The notes beneath the pieces were generated by a model. It had not been told where the DNA came from, did no database searches, and saw nothing but the letters and a program-made list of their open reading frames with translations. Positions 4,269 to 23,063 of a stretch of 23,546 nt of DNA are shown piece by piece. A program made the translations under genes and the position numbers. Position 1 is the stretch's first letter. Each line of letters opens with the position of its first letter. This DNA is from a virus: positions 1 through 23,546 of the IMG/VR virus record IMGVR_UViG_3300047323_000163; one strand, written 5' to 3'.

Positions 4269-4282
4269 TCCGCGAGGCTGTC

Positions 4283-4310
4283 AGCGGGGGCCGGTAGGCT
4301 GGCCCCCGCT
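4283..4310 (+). terminator. Strong terminator after the secreted-protein gene
   Basis: A perfect 10-bp stem, AGCGGGGGCC with GGCCCCCGCT, has an 8-base loop and is followed by TTTCGG. It starts 14 bases after the stop at 4266-4268 and ends 18 bases before the GTG of the next gene, so that gene must rely on read-through or on a promoter within the hairpin region. Confidence 0.8.
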
Positions 4311-4328
4311 TTCGGCGTAGGAGCAACA

Positions 4329-4679
4329 GTGAACGAACCGGTCCCCGCTCTCGGGTATGTCCGCGTCAACAATCCGCGGGCGCTCACCGAGTCCGAACGG
4401 CAGCGGAACAGCATCAACGCTTGGGCCTCTCGCACTGGGCACCTGATGGTCGGCTGGGTCGAGGACATCTGGGTACCCGGTACAGGCGGGAACGAAGCGG
4501 GCCTCGAAGAGCTGCTGGACCGTGTCCGAAGCGGTGAGGCAGCAGTGATCGCGGTTGAGGAGATCCACCGCGTTAGCCGCAAGGTTGTTGTGGTCAGGGA
4601 ATGGATGGCCCGCCTTGAGGAGGCCGGCGGCCGGTGTGAGGCGACAGGACCCGCCGAGCCGTACAGGCGCACGGTCTGA
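4329..4679 (+). CDS. Serine-recombinase N-terminal-like protein, catalytic Ser replaced
   Basis: This 116-residue protein starts at a GTG with AGGAG five bases upstream. Its whole length matches the shape of a serine resolvase/invertase catalytic domain: GYVRV at residues 9-13, a QxxxINAWA-type helix followed by GH near 25-38, a VEDxxxPGT turn at 44-52, LEELLDRVRSGE at 59-70, and HRVSR at 80-84, equivalent to the DRLSR arginine motif. The residue after YVRV, where the nucleophilic serine should be, is Asn14, and the arginine usual after the SGT turn is also missing. There is no DNA-binding or large-serine-integrase C-terminal region. It is therefore probably catalytically dead and may act as a regulator or dimerisation partner, or be a remnant. 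Strong terminator hairpins flank it. Confidence 0.65.
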   Translation: MNEPVPALGYVRVNNPRALTESERQRNSINAWASRTGHLMVGWVEDIWVPGTGGNEAGLEELLDRVRSGEAAVIAVEEIHRVSRKVVVVREWMARLEEAGGRCEATGPAEPYRRTV

Positions 4680-4700
4680 TCGAATCGCCCTTGAAACGAG

Positions 4701-4738
4701 AAAAAGGCCCACCCCCATTAACGGGGGTGGGCCTTTTT
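4701..4738. terminator. Bidirectional intrinsic terminator between convergent arms
   Basis: A 16-bp perfect stem runs from a five-A run through GGCCCACCCCC, with a six-base loop (ATTAAC), to the complementary arm and seven Ts. The A-run on one side and T-run on the other make it a classical rho-independent terminator in both directions. It ends the + strand genes (last stop 4679) and the late - strand operon (last stop 4803). Confidence 0.95.
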
Positions 4739-4802
4739 TTATTGGTCCACTTTTGACATGGACATTATTTCATTCTCTCACTCCGAAGCGGACCCCTCCG
4801 CC

Positions 4803-5102
4803 TCAGTACTGGGCAGGCGTACTCGCCTGGTCGGCCGACACATCGGCCGTCTTCTCCGCTGCGATGGCCTCAAGTGCCTTCTGTGCAGCCGCAGCACGGT
4901 CCCAGGGGGACGGCGCGGCCAGCGCGGCAGCAGTCTTGGTGTTCTCGTGCCGCTGGGCAACCTCACTCACACCAAACAGAGCCGCGGCAGTGGCCACAAG
5001 GCCCTCCCACGGGATGTCAGGGAAGAGGAACGCGGCCAGCGGCACAGCCGCCGCAGCGATACCGACGATGCGGACAGCGTGCTTCGAGATGAATTCATTC
5101 AT
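4803..5102 (-). CDS. Putative holin
   Basis: The ATG at 5102 has GGAG six bases upstream; a TTG two codons earlier overlaps that ribosome site and is rejected. The 99-residue protein has a short polar start (MNEFISKH), then two hydrophobic segments at about residues 10-28 and 33-50 separated by PDIPWE, and a long charged alanine-rich cytoplasmic tail containing SEVAQRHE. Size, two helices and position 23 bases after the endolysin, as the last late gene, fit a class II-type actinophage holin that permeabilises the membrane and releases the lysin. The call rests on topology and context and not on a signature motif. Confidence 0.75.
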   Translation of the reverse strand: MNEFISKHAVRIVGIAAAAVPLAAFLFPDIPWEGLVATAAALFGVSEVAQRHENTKTAAALAAPSPWDRAAAAQKALEAIAAEKTADVSADQASTPAQY

Positions 5103-5125
5103 TCGCAACTCCAGTCAGGAAAAGG

Positions 5126-5968
5126 TCACTTGCACTGAGACTTGGCCGACGCCGTGGCAGTCGACTTCGGCTTGGTGCTCGTCTTGGGCTTGGTGGTCGC
5201 CTTCGGCGTCGAGCTGGCCTTCGGCGTGGAGGCCGGCACGGTCACCTTTTGGCCCGGCTGGATCACGTTGGCGTCCTTGATCCCAGAGTTGAGACCGAGG
5301 ACAACAGCAATGGACACACCCGCACTGGCAGCGATCAGGCCGAGCGTCTGACCCGCCTTCACGGTCACCACCTTCGTCTTCGAGGTGCTGGGCTTGGCGT
5401 GCGCTGCGGTCGAGCTGGTCACCGGAGCCGACGCCTTCGCGGCGTAGTGGAAGCCGGTCTTGCCCTTCAGCGCAGGGTCAGCGGTCGTGATGCCTTCCGT
5501 GTACTTCGGCAGGCCGTACCCGTAGGTGTTTGCGTCCCGACGCTTACGCGTCCGCACATAAACCCCGTTGCCTTCCGGGGAACCGTCGACGTTCGTATTG
5601 CCTTCCACGGTCGTAATCGTGTCGGCATCGAAGGCAACGCAAATCCCGGTGTGCGTCCCACCGTCCTTGCCGAAAAAGACCTGACTGCCGATAGCCGGGT
5701 ACTCGGAGAACCGACCCTTCTGCCGGAACCAGTTCACGCCGTAGGCGCAGGACGCGGAGCGCGGGAACAGGTCAGCGACTCCAGCCTTGAGCGCCACCCA
5801 CGAAACGAAGAGGGCGCACCACGGGTACTCACCCGCGCTCACCCATGCCATTCCGGGGACCTGATCGGCGTACTTCTCGTGGTTGTTCCAGTGGCCGTTC
5901 GAGAAGCCTTCCTTGTAGCCCTTCTCGGCCTTCGCGATACTCAGTACCTTCGCAGCCTGACTCGCCAT
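5126..5968 (-). CDS. Endolysin with CHAP peptidase domain and LysM domain
   Basis: The 280-residue product starts at an ATG with AGGAGG a few bases upstream. Residues 1 to about 175 form a CHAP amidase/endopeptidase domain: Cys51 in PWCALFVSWV, His106 in THTG and Glu122 in VEGNTN fit the Cys-His-Glu/Asn catalytic set. Residues 200-245 are a LysM peptidoglycan-binding domain (VVTVKAGQTL ... VIQPGQKVTVP). After it comes a 35-residue Thr/Lys/Pro/Ser tail ending SQCK, which is unusual. There is no signal peptide, so release should depend on the holin encoded next. The CHAP domain is collinear with that of the tail protein at 7111-8091, down to GYGLP at about residue 150, so the two are paralogues. 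A terminator-like hairpin sits just before its ribosome site. Confidence 0.93.
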   Translation of the reverse strand: MASQAAKVLSIAKAEKGYKEGFSNGHWNNHEKYADQVPGMAWVSAGEYPWCALFVSWVALKAGVADLFPRSASCAYGVNWFRQKGRFSEYPAIGSQVFFGKDGGTHTGICVAFDADTITTVEGNTNVDGSPEGNGVYVRTRKRRDANTYGYGLPKYTEGITTADPALKGKTGFHYAAKASAPVTSSTAAHAKPSTSKTKVVTVKAGQTLGLIAASAGVSIAVVLGLNSGIKDANVIQPGQKVTVPASTPKASSTPKATTKPKTSTKPKSTATASAKSQCK

Positions 5969-5987
5969 GTCGTCTCCTCCTTGGCAT

Positions 5988-6014
5988 AAAAAAGAAGGTC
6001 GGCATGGCCGACCT
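5988..6014 (-). terminator. Intrinsic terminator just upstream of the endolysin
   Basis: On the - strand, AGGTCGGC, loop CAT, GCCGACCT is followed by TCTTTTTT. The T-tract ends 19 bases before the endolysin ATG, with the ribosome site between. The arrangement leaves no room for a promoter, so the endolysin probably depends on read-through, or the hairpin protects an upstream 3' end. Confidence 0.8.
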
Positions 6015-6114
6015 CAGTTTTGGGGTATTCTTTTTCGAATTCTTCAGCTCGCGGCGTGGCGTCTCCGGGTGTAGCCTTAAAGGGAGTGCGTAGACGAAGG
6101 GAGGGCATTCGACT

Positions 6115-6429
6115 ATGAACATGGCCGCCCTTTGGATCATCCTTTGCGCCTCCCTGATAGGCGCAGTTTCAGCATTGTGGGTAACCCTCTCTAGAGGGAT
6201 TCGCCACTCTCGCCAACTGACAGTACTAATGGGAACAGCAATGGTGGTTAGGCACTTGAAGGTCCGCCAATTGATCTCAGATACGCCGACTGCTGAAGAG
6301 GCGAGGGAAGCCGAAGAATCTCTCAAGAGGGTGGATGAACTTACCTGGCAGATAAACAAGTCTCTGACTGAACACCTCCAGCGCAGCCCAGAGGAGCAAA
6401 GGGTGCCCGAGAGCCCTGATCACAAGTGA
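6115..6429 (+). CDS. Small membrane protein, moron-like, gene 1 of 2
   Basis: The ATG at 6115 has GGGAGGG about nine bases upstream. The 104-residue product has one N-terminal membrane helix (residues 3-24, rich in A, I, L, W), then a basic segment, RGIRHSRQ, and a mostly charged helical tail (AEEAREAEESLKRVDEL). It is encoded against the surrounding late genes. Codons such as CTA, AGA, AGG, GTA and ATA are more frequent than in the virion genes, which hints at separate origin. It is followed six bases later by another membrane-protein gene, so the two form a cassette. No family was recognised; host-membrane action such as exclusion is speculation from topology and placement. Confidence 0.65.
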   Translation: MNMAALWIILCASLIGAVSALWVTLSRGIRHSRQLTVLMGTAMVVRHLKVRQLISDTPTAEEAREAEESLKRVDELTWQINKSLTEHLQRSPEEQRVPESPDHK

Positions 6430-6435
6430 GGGTCA

Positions 6436-6828
6436 ATGGCAACTGTCCAGAGGCAAAGCGCGCCTCGTCCCGCTAAGATAGTGCCCCGCAAAAAGGGGGC
6501 CGCTGCCGTAGGTGGGGTGAGCACTGGAACGTTGGCGGTGACCATCGGGCAATTTGTAACGCCACGCAGTATTCCCTTTTATGCCCTGACCTATTTGGCG
6601 CCACTGATCACCACAATTTCCGGCCTCGTCATGGCATGGCTGCAAACCCAGATCGCCGTAGTCAATACGTGGTTGCGGCTGTGGCTTCCCCGCAGAATCC
6701 TTAAGCGTCGGCTCAAAGTCCCTGACCTCCCCGCGAAGGAGAGGAAGGAAATAGAGAAGGCGTTGCATGACGTGGATCAGCATCGGATCCTGCAACAGAT
6801 CAGGACGATCAAGGACACAATAGAATGA
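6436..6828 (+). CDS. Small membrane protein, moron-like, gene 2 of 2
   Basis: This 130-residue protein starts seven bases after the previous stop, with GAGGG overlapping that stop as ribosome site, so it is coupled to the gene before it. It has a basic N-terminus (RPAKIVPRKKG), a weakly hydrophobic stretch at about 24-40, and a clear hydrophobic region at about 48-80 broken by a PLI turn, then a strongly basic segment, LPRRILKRRLK, and an amphipathic charged C-terminal helix. Codon use includes TTT, AAA, ATA and GTA, unlike the GC-rich neighbours. It converges with the - strand gene ending at 6835, only six bases away and with no terminator between. Function is unknown. Confidence 0.65.
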   Translation: MATVQRQSAPRPAKIVPRKKGAAAVGGVSTGTLAVTIGQFVTPRSIPFYALTYLAPLITTISGLVMAWLQTQIAVVNTWLRLWLPRRILKRRLKVPDLPAKERKEIEKALHDVDQHRILQQIRTIKDTIE

Positions 6829-6834
6829 TTTAAC

Positions 6835-7098
6835 TCAGCGGCGCAGCGAATTTATTCGTTCAGGATCAAGTGCAGTCAGCAGCTCGATCAACCGAGCATT
6901 CTCGGCCTCGATGCGCGTCAGACGTTCCTTGATTTCATTCATGTCGTTCTGAAGCCGGTCAGCGCGGGCACGCTGTGCCTCGGCCTCTTCCTTCCAGACC
7001 TTTGCGGTATTGGTCTGCCAAGCCGCCCTGACGATGATCAGGGCGGCAGCAACAGCCGATATGAGGCCCGCGTAATCGATGATGCTCTTAGGGCCCAT
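6835..7098 (-). CDS. Small membrane protein with coiled coil, lysis-region
   Basis: The ATG at 7098 has GGGAGAGAG upstream. The 87-residue product has one N-terminal membrane helix (about residues 8-26, with the core LISAVAAALIIV), followed by a long charged heptad-patterned helix from about 33 to 75 (EEAEAQRARADRLQNDMNE and on). One membrane anchor with a cytoplasmic or external coiled coil next to lysin genes is a design seen in accessory lysis proteins of Gram-positive phages, and such genes are sometimes annotated as second holins or just membrane proteins. The gene follows the CHAP tail protein by 12 bases. The sequence does not decide between holin, antiholin and structural roles. Confidence 0.7.
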   Translation of the reverse strand: MGPKSIIDYAGLISAVAAALIIVRAAWQTNTAKVWKEEAEAQRARADRLQNDMNEIKERLTRIEAENARLIELLTALDPERINSLRR

Positions 7099-7110
7099 GG
7101 CTCTCTCCCA

Positions 7111-8091
7111 TTACGCAGGTGCGATAGTCGTGACGGTTCCGCTCGAACCTCGGTACCTGAGTGCGCCACCAGAGACGAACAGGATTCCGCCGCCACTCGG
7201 ATTGGTGGTCGGGGCGGTCGTCGCGTTCTTCATGCTGATGACCGCACCAGCGCTTCCACCAAGATCCGCGGTCGTGCTACCGAGCTGGAGAGCCTTGGTC
7301 AGGTAGGCGATCGAATTGGTGATCTGAGCACCAGCACCCGTGATCTCGAAAACGATATTGCCGTCAGCGTCCTTGAATCGGACGATGGAAGGGGCGGTAG
7401 AGGTGGCTCCCACCACCTCAAGAGCCACGGTCGAGGAGTCGTTCTGCTGGATGAACACACGGCCCGCGTGGGCCGCACCGTCCACGCTCAGAGTGTCCGT
7501 GACCAGGTTGTTCGTCATCAGTCCGCCCGGCCGCAGCTCGGCCGGCCCAGGGCCCATGTGCGAGAGCGCGTACGTGTATCCGGAGACGCCCTTCTTCGCG
7601 GTATCGGCCGTGATGATGCCTTCGGGGTAAGCGGGCAGACCGTACCCGTACACATTCGCGTCGGAACGCTTGCGCTTACGGAAATAGACACCGTCACCCT
7701 CGGAAGTACCGTTATCAGAGGTGTTGGCTTCGATCGTCCAAATGTAAGTCGCGTCGTAGGCGTAAACGATCCCTGTGTGGTCCTGGCCCGAAGTTCCGTA
7801 CATGACCTGAGCGCCAATTGCCGGGTACCAGGACCAACGGCCAGCAGTGTTGAACCACGTAACAGCGGCCGAGCAGTCAGCGGTACGCGGGAAAAGAGCC
7901 GCGCAACCAGCGCGCATCGCTACCCACGAGGTGAACACGGCACACCATGACTGGCCCTGAGCCCAGCTAAGGCCGGGAACTTCCGACGCGTACTTCTCGG
8001 CATTGGTCCAGCCGCCCTCGGTGTATCCCTCGCGATAACCGATCTGCGACTTGGCCACTGCAATAACCTGCGACATAAGCGAGATAGCCAT
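7111..8091 (-). CDS. Tail-associated CHAP hydrolase with fiber-like C-terminal module
   Basis: The 326-residue protein starts at an ATG with AGGAGG six bases upstream. Residues 1-175 are a CHAP domain: Cys50 in SWCAVFTSWV, His105 in DHTG and Glu121 in IEANT are the expected catalytic residues. It aligns without large gaps to residues 1-176 of the endolysin (shared GYGLP, EGI.TAD). Instead of LysM it carries a beta-rich, Gly/Thr/Ser module (about 190-326) ending GGALRYRGSSGTVTTIAPA, a type found at the C-termini of actinophage minor tail and fiber proteins. It therefore probably sits at the tail tip and opens peptidoglycan locally during DNA entry. It is the last of the tail genes. A role as second lysin cannot be excluded. 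Confidence 0.85.
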   Translation of the reverse strand: MAISLMSQVIAVAKSQIGYREGYTEGGWTNAEKYASEVPGLSWAQGQSWCAVFTSWVAMRAGCAALFPRTADCSAAVTWFNTAGRWSWYPAIGAQVMYGTSGQDHTGIVYAYDATYIWTIEANTSDNGTSEGDGVYFRKRKRSDANVYGYGLPAYPEGIITADTAKKGVSGYTYALSHMGPGPAELRPGGLMTNNLVTDTLSVDGAAHAGRVFIQQNDSSTVALEVVGATSTAPSIVRFKDADGNIVFEITGAGAQITNSIAYLTKALQLGSTTADLGGSAGAVISMKNATTAPTTNPSGGGILFVSGGALRYRGSSGTVTTIAPA

Positions 8092-20434: not shown

Positions 20435-20788
20435 CTAGCAGTCGTAGCGGCGAAGGGGGAGTGAACCGACCTTTCGCCGGTACTTGCTGAGTGCGGACTT
20501 CGCTTCCCGCGAGAGCCCTTGAGTTGAAGCCGTCTGACCAAACTGAGTTTCCAGCTCGCCTGTGCGTTCCAAGATCACGCCAGGGGCAACGGACAGCCAG
20601 CGGATGACCTCGGCGCACACAACTGTCTTGAAGACGGCAGGGGGAGAGTCCTTATCCCAAGGCTTGGTGCAGTAGCCCGTGACCAGCGCGGAGGCATCGT
20701 CCATGAGGGCCTGGACGCGAAGCAGCTCGCCGTCGTCGAGGGGCCGACCGAGCCGGGCAGCGATGTCGTCAGTGGTCGCCAGGGGCAT
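20435..20788 (-). CDS. Head-tail connector (gp19/gp6-like adaptor)
   Basis: The ATG at 20788 follows AGGAGGG. The 117-residue, mostly helical protein starts MPLATTDDIAARLGRPLDD, followed by a helix with LMDDASALVTGYC, then VCAEVIRWL, and ends in a C-terminal FGQTASTQGLS...LSKYRRK segment. That pattern matches the adaptor family listed as phage gp19/gp15/gp42-like (PF09355) in actinophages. It forms the ring beneath the portal. It is separated from the capsid gene by the opposite-strand gene at 21099-21326 and a 310-base gap, so it may have its own promoter or depend on read-through. Confidence 0.87.
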   Translation of the reverse strand: MPLATTDDIAARLGRPLDDGELLRVQALMDDASALVTGYCTKPWDKDSPPAVFKTVVCAEVIRWLSVAPGVILERTGELETQFGQTASTQGLSREAKSALSKYRRKVGSLPLRRYDC

Positions 20789-21098
20789 GGCGGGTCCCTC
20801 CTTCTAGTGAGTGGATGGCGGCTGTTGGCGAAGAGCGGTGCCCACAAGGGGAGTTGAGCGCTAACGTGATCTGAGGCGGTGGCTTGGGACGCACCGCAAG
20901 TCATCTGATGGGAGTTGGGATGGCACGGGGACCCCCGCGATAAGTGAAGGCGGCCATGTAGGAACGCTCATGCCCAGAGCGGAGTGCCGCCGAAGGGTCG
21001 GAATTCAGTGCAATACGAAGCTGTGGGCATCCGACTCTTCACTGCCTAAATAAGGACGTGATGCCTTTATGAGCCCCTAAAGACTTGGAGAAAAAGAG
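20789..21098. other. Gap between connector gene and moron, probable divergent control region
   Basis: This 310-base stretch has no gene I can support on either strand. It separates the divergently oriented connector gene (-) and membrane-protein gene (+), so it should hold two promoters, but I found no convincing -35/-10 pair; a TAAATA near 21047 is the only -10-like hexamer and has no good partner. A 6-bp hairpin, GCGGTG/CACCGC, lies at 20876-20897. A short - strand frame starting MAAFTYRGG, which begins ACATGG near 20956, runs only 18 codons and has no ribosome site, so it may be a decayed small head gene. Confidence 0.5.
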
Positions 21099-21326
21099 AT
21101 GACTACAGCACCACCACCGGCGCCACCGGCGCCACCACACCCACACAAGGCCTGGGTTGTCCTCGTCGTAATTACGTTGGCTATAGCAGCTGGAGCAATC
21201 GCAGTTGCTATCTTCATCGGACTGCATGCGGCCACTCTAGGAATCGTTGGAGCAGGCGCGCTGACTCTCGTCGGCACGGTTACCTTGCTGCTTCAGGTAA
21301 CTAGGGCGTTGGGACTGACCCCTTGA
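21099..21326 (+). CDS. Two-helix membrane protein, moron between capsid and connector
   Basis: The ATG at 21099 has GGAG nine bases upstream. The 75-residue product starts with a proline-rich arm, TTAPPPAPPAPPHPH, then two hydrophobic helices at about residues 18-42 (AWVVLVVITLAIAAGAIAV...) and 45-70, joined by a short HAATLG turn, with a very short end. It is encoded opposite to all surrounding head genes. Codons such as ATA, GTA, CTA, AGG, GCA, ACA and GGA are common, unlike the GC-ending codons of the capsid gene. A large hairpin follows directly. This has all signs of a moron: own leader, own terminator, foreign composition. The topology is holin-like, but the location argues for a membrane-acting accessory role. 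No family is recognised. Confidence 0.65.
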   Translation: MTTAPPPAPPAPPHPHKAWVVLVVITLAIAAGAIAVAIFIGLHAATLGIVGAGALTLVGTVTLLLQVTRALGLTP

Positions 21327-21330
21327 CGGG

Positions 21331-21357
21331 GGCCCCGGAGCAGCCAGCTCCGGGGCC
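21331..21357. terminator. Bidirectional hairpin between moron and major capsid gene
   Basis: A perfect 11-bp stem, GGCCCCGGAGC with GCTCCGGGGCC, has a 5-base loop. It starts five bases past the stop of the + gene (21324-21326) and lies 14 bases past the capsid stop at 21372 on the other strand, so it can end both transcripts. No clear T-tract follows. Confidence 0.8.
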
Positions 21358-21371
21358 GAGTTGCGTCAGCG

Positions 21372-22436
21372 TCAGCCAGCAGCCGGGGCGTTGTGAGTGT
21401 TGATCTCCGCCTCGACGCCCTGAGCCACGAGAAGCTGCTCGGGCCGGCAGACCTTCGCGTCGTAGATGACGCGGGACTTCACGGCCGACGTGAAGGACTT
21501 CTCCGGGTTGTACGCGGCCATCTCGGCGAACGGCACGACGACGGAGACAGCGGAGGTCGAACCCATGAACAGGTCGACGCTGCCGAACTTCTCGTTGCCC
21601 TTCTTGATGACCGGCGAGGACGGGCGGGCGTGGTTGCCCAGCGCGTTCGCGACCACGACCGGCAGGCCGAGAATCGAGCCGATCTGACCGGAGGCCACGA
21701 CCGAACCGCCGCCGCCGTGCTGCGACGCGTCGATGAACTTCTCGTCCCGCAGGAGGAGAGAGCGCATGCGCGGGGAGACGAACAGGTACCGGTCCTGCGG
21801 AGCAGAGCGGGTGTCCAGCACCTCAAGCATCTTCACCACGTAGTCGTAGACCGACAGCTTGTCCGTGTCGGGGGCGTTCACGTCAGTCGCCTGAACCTTG
21901 GAGATGGCACCCAGCTCCAGCGAGGGGAGACCGGACACGGTGGCGGAACGATTCTCCGCGCCGTTCAGGTCCTTGCCCTGAAGAGCCGCGAGCAGGGTGA
22001 GCGCAACCAGCTCGTCAATGGCAAGCGCGGTCTGACGCGCACGCTGCGAGACCAGGTTGGACATCAGGTCGATGCCGCCCTTGGTCTGGAGCTGGTGAAG
22101 AGCGTCGATCTCCAGGTGGAAGCTGGAGCCCTTCGCGACGGTCATCTTCATGTACTCAAGGGCCGCGTGGTCGGCGTCACCGATCTCGCCGTATGCCTTC
22201 ACCAGGCCCTTGTCAGAAACGGTCCCGTCAACGAAGTGCGGGATTCGGATTACGTCTCCCTCGCGCTTGAACTCGCCCTCATACTGGCGGTTCGTGAACG
22301 GGGAGGCACCGAGGATAAGGTTTTCCTCGATATCGGCAATGAGCTGGGAAGTCCAGACCTCGGGAATGAACTGACCCTGCGTGGTCTGGAGCTGACCGGC
22401 ACCAGTGTTATTGCCAGCCTGAGAAAGAAATGCCAT
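21372..22436 (-). CDS. Major capsid protein
   Basis: The ATG at 22436 has GAGGT seven bases upstream. The 354-residue product has HK97-fold features of the P22-coat/Streptomyces-phage type: an N-terminal FIPEVWTSQLIADIEENL helix, an E-loop-like region GDVIRIPHFVDGTVSDKG, a spine helix region with YVVKMLEVLD and a DRYLFVSPRMRSLLL strand, then SGQIGSILGLPVVVANAL and the C-terminal P-domain segment with AAYNPEKSFTSAVKSRVIYDAKVCRPEQL. It follows the scaffold gene and is normally the most abundant late product. No prohead protease appears in the window and no delta-domain is seen, so processing of the N-terminus is not predicted. Confidence 0.95.
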   Translation of the reverse strand: MAFLSQAGNNTGAGQLQTTQGQFIPEVWTSQLIADIEENLILGASPFTNRQYEGEFKREGDVIRIPHFVDGTVSDKGLVKAYGEIGDADHAALEYMKMTVAKGSSFHLEIDALHQLQTKGGIDLMSNLVSQRARQTALAIDELVALTLLAALQGKDLNGAENRSATVSGLPSLELGAISKVQATDVNAPDTDKLSVYDYVVKMLEVLDTRSAPQDRYLFVSPRMRSLLLRDEKFIDASQHGGGGSVVASGQIGSILGLPVVVANALGNHARPSSPVIKKGNEKFGSVDLFMGSTSAVSVVVPFAEMAAYNPEKSFTSAVKSRVIYDAKVCRPEQLLVAQGVEAEINTHNAPAAG

Positions 22437-22455: not shown

Positions 22456-23037
22456 TCAGATTTCGCCTCGCATAAGGGCGTCGAGCTGACCCGCCTTGCG
22501 GGCAGCATTGATCTCCTGCGGGGACATGCGGGAAAGGTCGTCGCGGCCGAGCTGCTGCACTCCGGAACCGCCCTGACGACCAAGGCCGAGGCCCTGTTCG
22601 AATTCAGGCTCAGCGACCGGCTTAGGGAGGGACGAGACGAAATTGCCGATCAGGTCGGCATTCACAGAGCCGTCCTCACCGAGGAACTTCGAGAGGTTCA
22701 GGAACTCGGCGGAAGGCAGCTCGACACCGACCTTTGCGGCCTGTGCACGAAGCTCGGCATCAGCAAGCCGAGTGCCGTATTCGGCAAGAGCCGCGGATCG
22801 GGCCTGCGCCTTGGCAGTCTCGACGGCCTTTTCGGCGTCGGTCATGCCAGCCGTCTTGAGCTGGTCTCGCTCCGCAGAGGCGTCCTTCCACCGCTGTTCG
22901 TTCGTGCGGGAAAGGGACTTCCACTTGTCGACCTCGGCCTGAAGGGCTTCGAGGTTCGGCGTCTGAGGGGTGCCGGCCTCGCCGGTCTCAGCGCCCTCGG
23001 TGGAAGCGGTGCCTGCGTTCTGAGCGTTCTCGTCCAT
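22456..23037 (-). CDS. Scaffold protein
   Basis: The 193-residue product is acidic and largely coiled coil: a Glu/Thr/Ala/Gly-rich start (GTASTEGAETGEAGTP), a heptad-like helix from about residue 28 to 60 (LEALQAEVDKWKSL... then ERDQLK), further EKAVETAKAQARSAALAEY helix, and a C-terminal helix with LSRMSPQEINAARKAG and LDALMRGEI. That last motif, ending with ALM or LLN, is the usual C-terminal signature of actinophage scaffolds. I prefer the ATG at 23037; an upstream ATG at 23052 lies only 11 bases after the T-tract of a terminator and lacks a ribosome site. It directs capsid assembly and is expected to leave the mature head. Confidence 0.87.
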   Translation of the reverse strand: MDENAQNAGTASTEGAETGEAGTPQTPNLEALQAEVDKWKSLSRTNEQRWKDASAERDQLKTAGMTDAEKAVETAKAQARSAALAEYGTRLADAELRAQAAKVGVELPSAEFLNLSKFLGEDGSVNADLIGNFVSSLPKPVAEPEFEQGLGLGRQGGSGVQQLGRDDLSRMSPQEINAARKAGQLDALMRGEI

Positions 23038-23063
23038 GCGTGATCCATCCATTTCGGTGCATC

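Follow-up and report, generated by a model that had tools for sequence, protein, structure and literature searches.

A probable moron encoding a predicted two-helix membrane protein between the capsid and adaptor genes of a Streptomyces-type siphophage

What is a small gene of opposite orientation doing between the capsid and head-tail adaptor genes of a siphophage? We addressed this question in a 23.5-kb siphophage contig (IMG/VR record IMGVR_UViG_3300047323_000163, 23,546 nucleotides; hereafter the window, meaning the whole stretch of DNA analysed), whose minus-strand genes run from the portal end through scaffold, capsid, adaptor, head closure and tail terminator to the major tail protein. 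A first-pass annotation of the DNA had read the plus-strand gene at the capsid-adaptor junction as a membrane moron. Morons are passenger genes, and we consider it very probable that this one reached the late head operon by horizontal transfer as a single-gene cassette. The features concerned are the following.

20435-20788, minus strand: head-tail adaptor gene (PHROG 137); its first 100-200 nt are part of the exchanged cassette, judging from identity profiles and controls
20789-21098, plus strand: long non-coding leader from the adaptor start to the moron start, identical in contigs L005 and L006
20790-21364: insert, in whose place empty relatives have ~30 bp
21087-21090, plus strand: ribosome-binding site GGAG, read from the sequence, 8 nt before the moron ATG
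21099-21326, plus strand: moron gene, 75 codons, ATG start (ORF list, hydropathy, AlphaFold, purifying selection, presence/absence)
21331-21341 and 21347-21357, between the convergent stops: perfect 11-bp inverted repeat with a 5-nt loop, putative terminator
21372-22436, minus strand: major capsid protein gene (PHROG 267), with a recombination breakpoint within its last 300-400 bp
22456-23052, minus strand: scaffold gene

The structural elements described in the first-pass annotation were all recovered. The 75-residue plus-strand gene has its own ribosome site, lies wedged between genes that PHROGs identifies as capsid and adaptor (the connector of the annotation), follows a long non-coding leader and shares with the convergent capsid gene a hairpin whose 11-bp arms pair at 100%. 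Its codon use is less GC-biased than that of the neighbouring head genes, with a GC3 of 0.51 against 0.73-0.84. The product is predicted to begin with a proline-rich N-terminus followed by membrane helices at about residues 19-42 and 46-70, for which the best 19-residue hydropathy windows score 2.96 and 2.09. An AlphaFold model placed the helices at residues 15-42 and 46-70 (pLDDT 75, pTM only 0.39), and the two hydrophobic helices predict a location in the membrane.

By its gene content, the phage group appears to be one of temperate, Streptomyces-type siphophages. The window capsid protein is 67% identical to that of Streptomyces phage Success and 60% identical to that of Ibantik. Large serine recombinases are encoded by the clade relatives G009 and G010, by the moron carrier L030 (G011) and, 22 kb from the capsid gene of L096, by the Streptomyces sp. 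H39-S7 contig (G002 C102), from which we infer that the group is temperate; no integrase of the window phage itself was seen in the partial window contig.

To compare the junction among relatives, as the annotation had proposed, we gathered related capsid genes from virus contigs and bacterial genomes and counted junctions by hand after removing duplicate loci and omitting the most distant capsid relatives. The adaptor gene lies within ~70 bp of the capsid gene in ~43 of ~50 distinct contigs, and an insert of 500-670 bp occupies the junction in the other ~7. Capsid DNA of L003, L004 and L007-L009 is 93-97% identical to that of the window, and their junction is empty, as is that of L010 (capsid DNA 87% identical); in these six relatives ~30-36 bp separate the capsid stop from the adaptor gene, and the flanks are contiguous. 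L095 and the named phages Success, Ibantik and P318 likewise have no moron at the junction. Presence of the same gene in all relatives, named in the annotation as an observation that would speak against a moron, was therefore not what we found: it occurs in three contigs of the window's clade, with a homologue in one prophage, and near-identical phages do without it. In L005 and L006 the moron differs from that of the window by at most one base, while their scaffold genes are 90% and their capsid genes 95-96% identical to those of the window.

Identity was profiled per 100 nt between the window and L003, which is empty, and between the window and L005, a carrier. Against L003, identity is 100% until ~400 nt before the capsid stop and then falls to 85-98%; against L005, it ranges over 79-100% until ~400 nt before the capsid stop and is 100% thereafter across the insert and 2 kb beyond it, except for one bin at 97%. 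These profiles mark the window as a recombinant of an L003-like and an L005-like phage: homologous recombination brought the moron out of an L005-like phage into an L003-like one. Carrier-empty pairs share only 54-72% identity over the first 100 nt of the adaptor gene, mostly below the sequence that follows, whereas empty-empty controls show 77-96% and no depression. In the Streptomyces mashuensis prophage L098, moreover, a decayed old adaptor start (LPVTPLCIMVRLGRD, compared with LPVIPIDIAVRLGRD in L099) persists after the capsid stop, where it forms one arm of the hairpin. The divergent adaptor starts and this remnant suggest that cassettes bring a new adaptor start with them, a reading drawn from four lineages.

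Other genes occupy the same junction. The prophage of Streptomyces sp. H39-S7 (L096) carries a homologue of 59% amino-acid identity with the same start, stop, length, orientation and place; it was reached only via its capsid gene, a protein-query scan of bacterial genome contigs having returned no match. The Success-like contigs L027 and L030 have a 78-aa gene, and L098 has a 71-aa gene with a TTG start. All of these are convergent with the capsid gene and encode two hydrophobic stretches, the second being weak in L098 (1.49). GC3 is low in the junction genes of L096, L027 and L030 as well, and not in that of L098 (0.90). One common family for all junction genes was considered and set aside, kinship of the L027/L030 gene to the window gene not being found in the comparisons; the window-L098 link is weak (3/1000 local shuffles).

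Might the reading frame simply be a chance opening in inserted non-coding DNA? ORFs of 75 codons are common in the window and antisense frames are open too, yet the conserved start, stop and length of the L096 counterpart, the ribosome site and the consistency of the two-helix design across independent inserts make this explanation extremely improbable. Substitution patterns point the same way. Between the window and L096 morons pS (0.43) exceeds pN (0.25), pS likewise exceeds pN between L027 and L030, and each of these pairs, which are independent of one another, has dN/dS below 1 (Fisher p = 0.007 and 0.0005), showing purifying selection. L027 and L030 also differ in tempo: their capsid genes are 99% identical with a dS of 0.03, whereas their morons show a dS of 0.34, so that the cargo was evidently exchanged or has a faster turnover than its flanks.

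The orientation of the gene bears on its expression. Lying on the opposite strand, the moron cannot be served by the late promoter, and since it opposes late transcription, we infer that it has a promoter of its own and is made from the prophage; gene orientation would thus require independent expression. Scans of the leader and of the sequence upstream of the moron, including a Streptomyces-type TTGAC/TAnnnT pattern, detected no sigma-70 or HrdB-like promoter. In the L027/L030 leader, copies of TTGGCG/CGCCAA recur as inverted elements ahead of the start codon; both phages retain them, with changes, and they are possible operators.

RNA folding of the hairpin at 21331-21357 was well below shuffled sequences on both strands (z = -3.6 for the plus and -3.4 for the minus strand), and the repeat is without a T-tract. 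A hairpin lies between both stops in 4/4 carriers folded (the window, L096, L030 and L098), with z-scores of -3.3 to -3.9 on the moron strand, which is always at least as stable as the capsid strand, and the core of its sequence was found only in carriers. In the L030 stem, G-U pairs on the moron strand correspond to A-C mismatches on the capsid strand; these pairs preserve the moron-strand stem and so suggest that it is the moron transcript which the hairpin serves.

A small hydrophobic protein behind a long untranslated leader also recalls prophage stabilisation by a membrane toxin or addiction module. We hold this to be very unlikely: no antisense RNA partner or antitoxin was recognised, Rfam has no match within the window, no toxin match above cut-off came from PADLOC or NCBIfam, and the gene is readily lost and swapped among phages.

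A second holin or an antiholin, with two membrane helices and late use, was the other function to be weighed, and the annotation had named identification as a holin needed for lysis as contrary to its reading. In its size, its two helices and its short C-terminal tail the protein does match the shape of a class II holin. The window, however, has lysis genes of its own, 15 kb away:

4803-5108: small membrane gene after the endolysin gene
5126-5968: endolysin gene

Both are retained in relatives without the moron, and the moron itself opposes the late operon, is missing from most relatives and matches no lysis family, all of which renders a lysis role very unlikely. Two endolysin-like genes of the window (5126-5968 and 7111-8091; region 4803-8091) match the same PHROG 9589, the second lying within the tail-fibre region.

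The annotation had also stated that the protein resembles no family. That stands for Pfam, PHROGs, NCBIfam and PADLOC, none of which gave a match above chance, and a protein search of phage and plasmid records found none at E up to 10; it does not stand for Streptomyces chromosomes, in which a loose, diffuse family of similar small two-helix proteins exists. Searching Streptomyces genomes by profile brought up L114 (79 aa; hhalign probability 96%, E 4e-9) and L133-L135. L114 groups with the window and L096 proteins; L133-L135 resemble and group with the L098 moron (46% identity for L135). These chromosomal relatives, encoded in host genomes outside any phage head operon, have ~66-79 aa, an H-[KR]-x-[WYF] motif before helix 1 and a Gly/Ala-rich helix 2. 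L118-L122, weak whole-genome matches, were rejected as homologues.

At about positions 1450-1515 of L133, L134 and L135, a strongly conserved upstream palindrome, GTTCTGACAGAAC, is followed by GGAAGG and a TTG start, and looks like an operator. L114/L142, a distant homologue of the window protein, has a serine-threonine repeat N-terminus with 7 copies of AGCACC and lies near ORFs that by eye resemble TnsA/TnsB; it is possibly cargo of a Tn7-like element.

The chromosomal relatives open a further reading, in which the moron was acquired from the Streptomyces chromosomal family and has a host-fitness or regulatory role in membrane stress, transport or development. L133-L135 sit among apparently ordinary chromosomal genes, L133 and L134 adjoining an apparent response-regulator gene (read from translations), and such relatives are equally compatible with a housekeeping or stress function. 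On the other side, fast turnover of cargo between near-identical phages is more typical of conflict genes. We regard this role as a serious possibility, though on balance a doubtful one.

Superinfection exclusion is the function we tentatively favour, at a little short of an even chance, because small membrane exclusion proteins of siphophages provide precedents and the cargo is exchanged rapidly. HK97 gp15 is an inner-membrane superinfection exclusion protein. Together with TP-J34 Ltp and Tuc2009 Sie2009 it exemplifies the membrane exclusion proteins of siphophages, and its gene, like that of the window, is a lone small membrane-protein gene carried as a moron by a temperate siphophage (PMC10883804). 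Unlike gp15, the window gene faces late genes and belongs to a phage of a different host phylum; no sequence relation between the two was found, and the role proposed here is by analogy. Pfam, PHROG, NCBIfam and PADLOC searches returned no sequence relation to a characterised exclusion protein. In the mechanism that we propose for superinfection exclusion, the moron's own promoter would drive its expression and the protein would be made from the prophage. It would lie in the cytoplasmic membrane as a helical hairpin, its two termini facing the cell interior, and would alter the lysogen, most likely by making DNA entry or early infection harder for competing phages. The terminal RNA hairpin would limit antisense transcription reaching the capsid gene.

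The 'ant moron' region of P22, a variable gene set 5' of the tailspike gene that includes the exclusion gene sieA, offers a parallel for the site: in the P22 group, as in the window's group, one late-operon site is repeatedly filled by different accessory genes (PMC2629481). The P22 region is multi-gene and beside the tailspike gene, whereas the window has a single convergent gene at the capsid-adaptor junction. In the Streptomyces prophage Samy, transcription of some genes continues in the lysogen, and these have been put forward as candidate morons; no comparable junction gene was found in the passages of that account examined (PMC11302927). In the libraries and papers searched, no description was found of the site, the orientation or the protein family; the kind of gene is itself known.

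That one junction is repeatedly filled by similarly built, differently encoded convergent genes suggests that a shared role is being selected, and could guide the search for genes of this kind in other phages. Speculatively, and we think it unlikely, the junction could be a reloadable docking site at which the exchanged unit comprises the adaptor start as landing homology, the leader, a convergent two-helix gene and the hairpin, the cargo being drawn from a diverse, unnamed Streptomyces family of anti-phage membrane proteins that is also chromosomal. Near-identical phages with and without the moron, together with the recombinant, make a clean natural experiment on what a small membrane gene does to the lysogen. 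With a gene set against the head operon directly behind the capsid gene, the question also arises of how read-through from capsid to adaptor is maintained.

Two further spots in the window vary among relatives. An opposite-strand insert at 5995-6834, between the endolysin gene and an 87-aa gene, holds two plus-strand genes, 6115-6429 (104 aa) and 6436-6828 (130 aa), with GC3 of 0.60-0.66; the relatives G009 and G010 have only ~40 bp there, which marks an apparent second moron site in the same late operon. After the lysis genes, at 4271-4770, lies a third variable spot, where G009 and G010 carry other small ORFs, and where the window has a plus-strand ORF (4329-4679) that by eye resembles a resolvase N-terminus.
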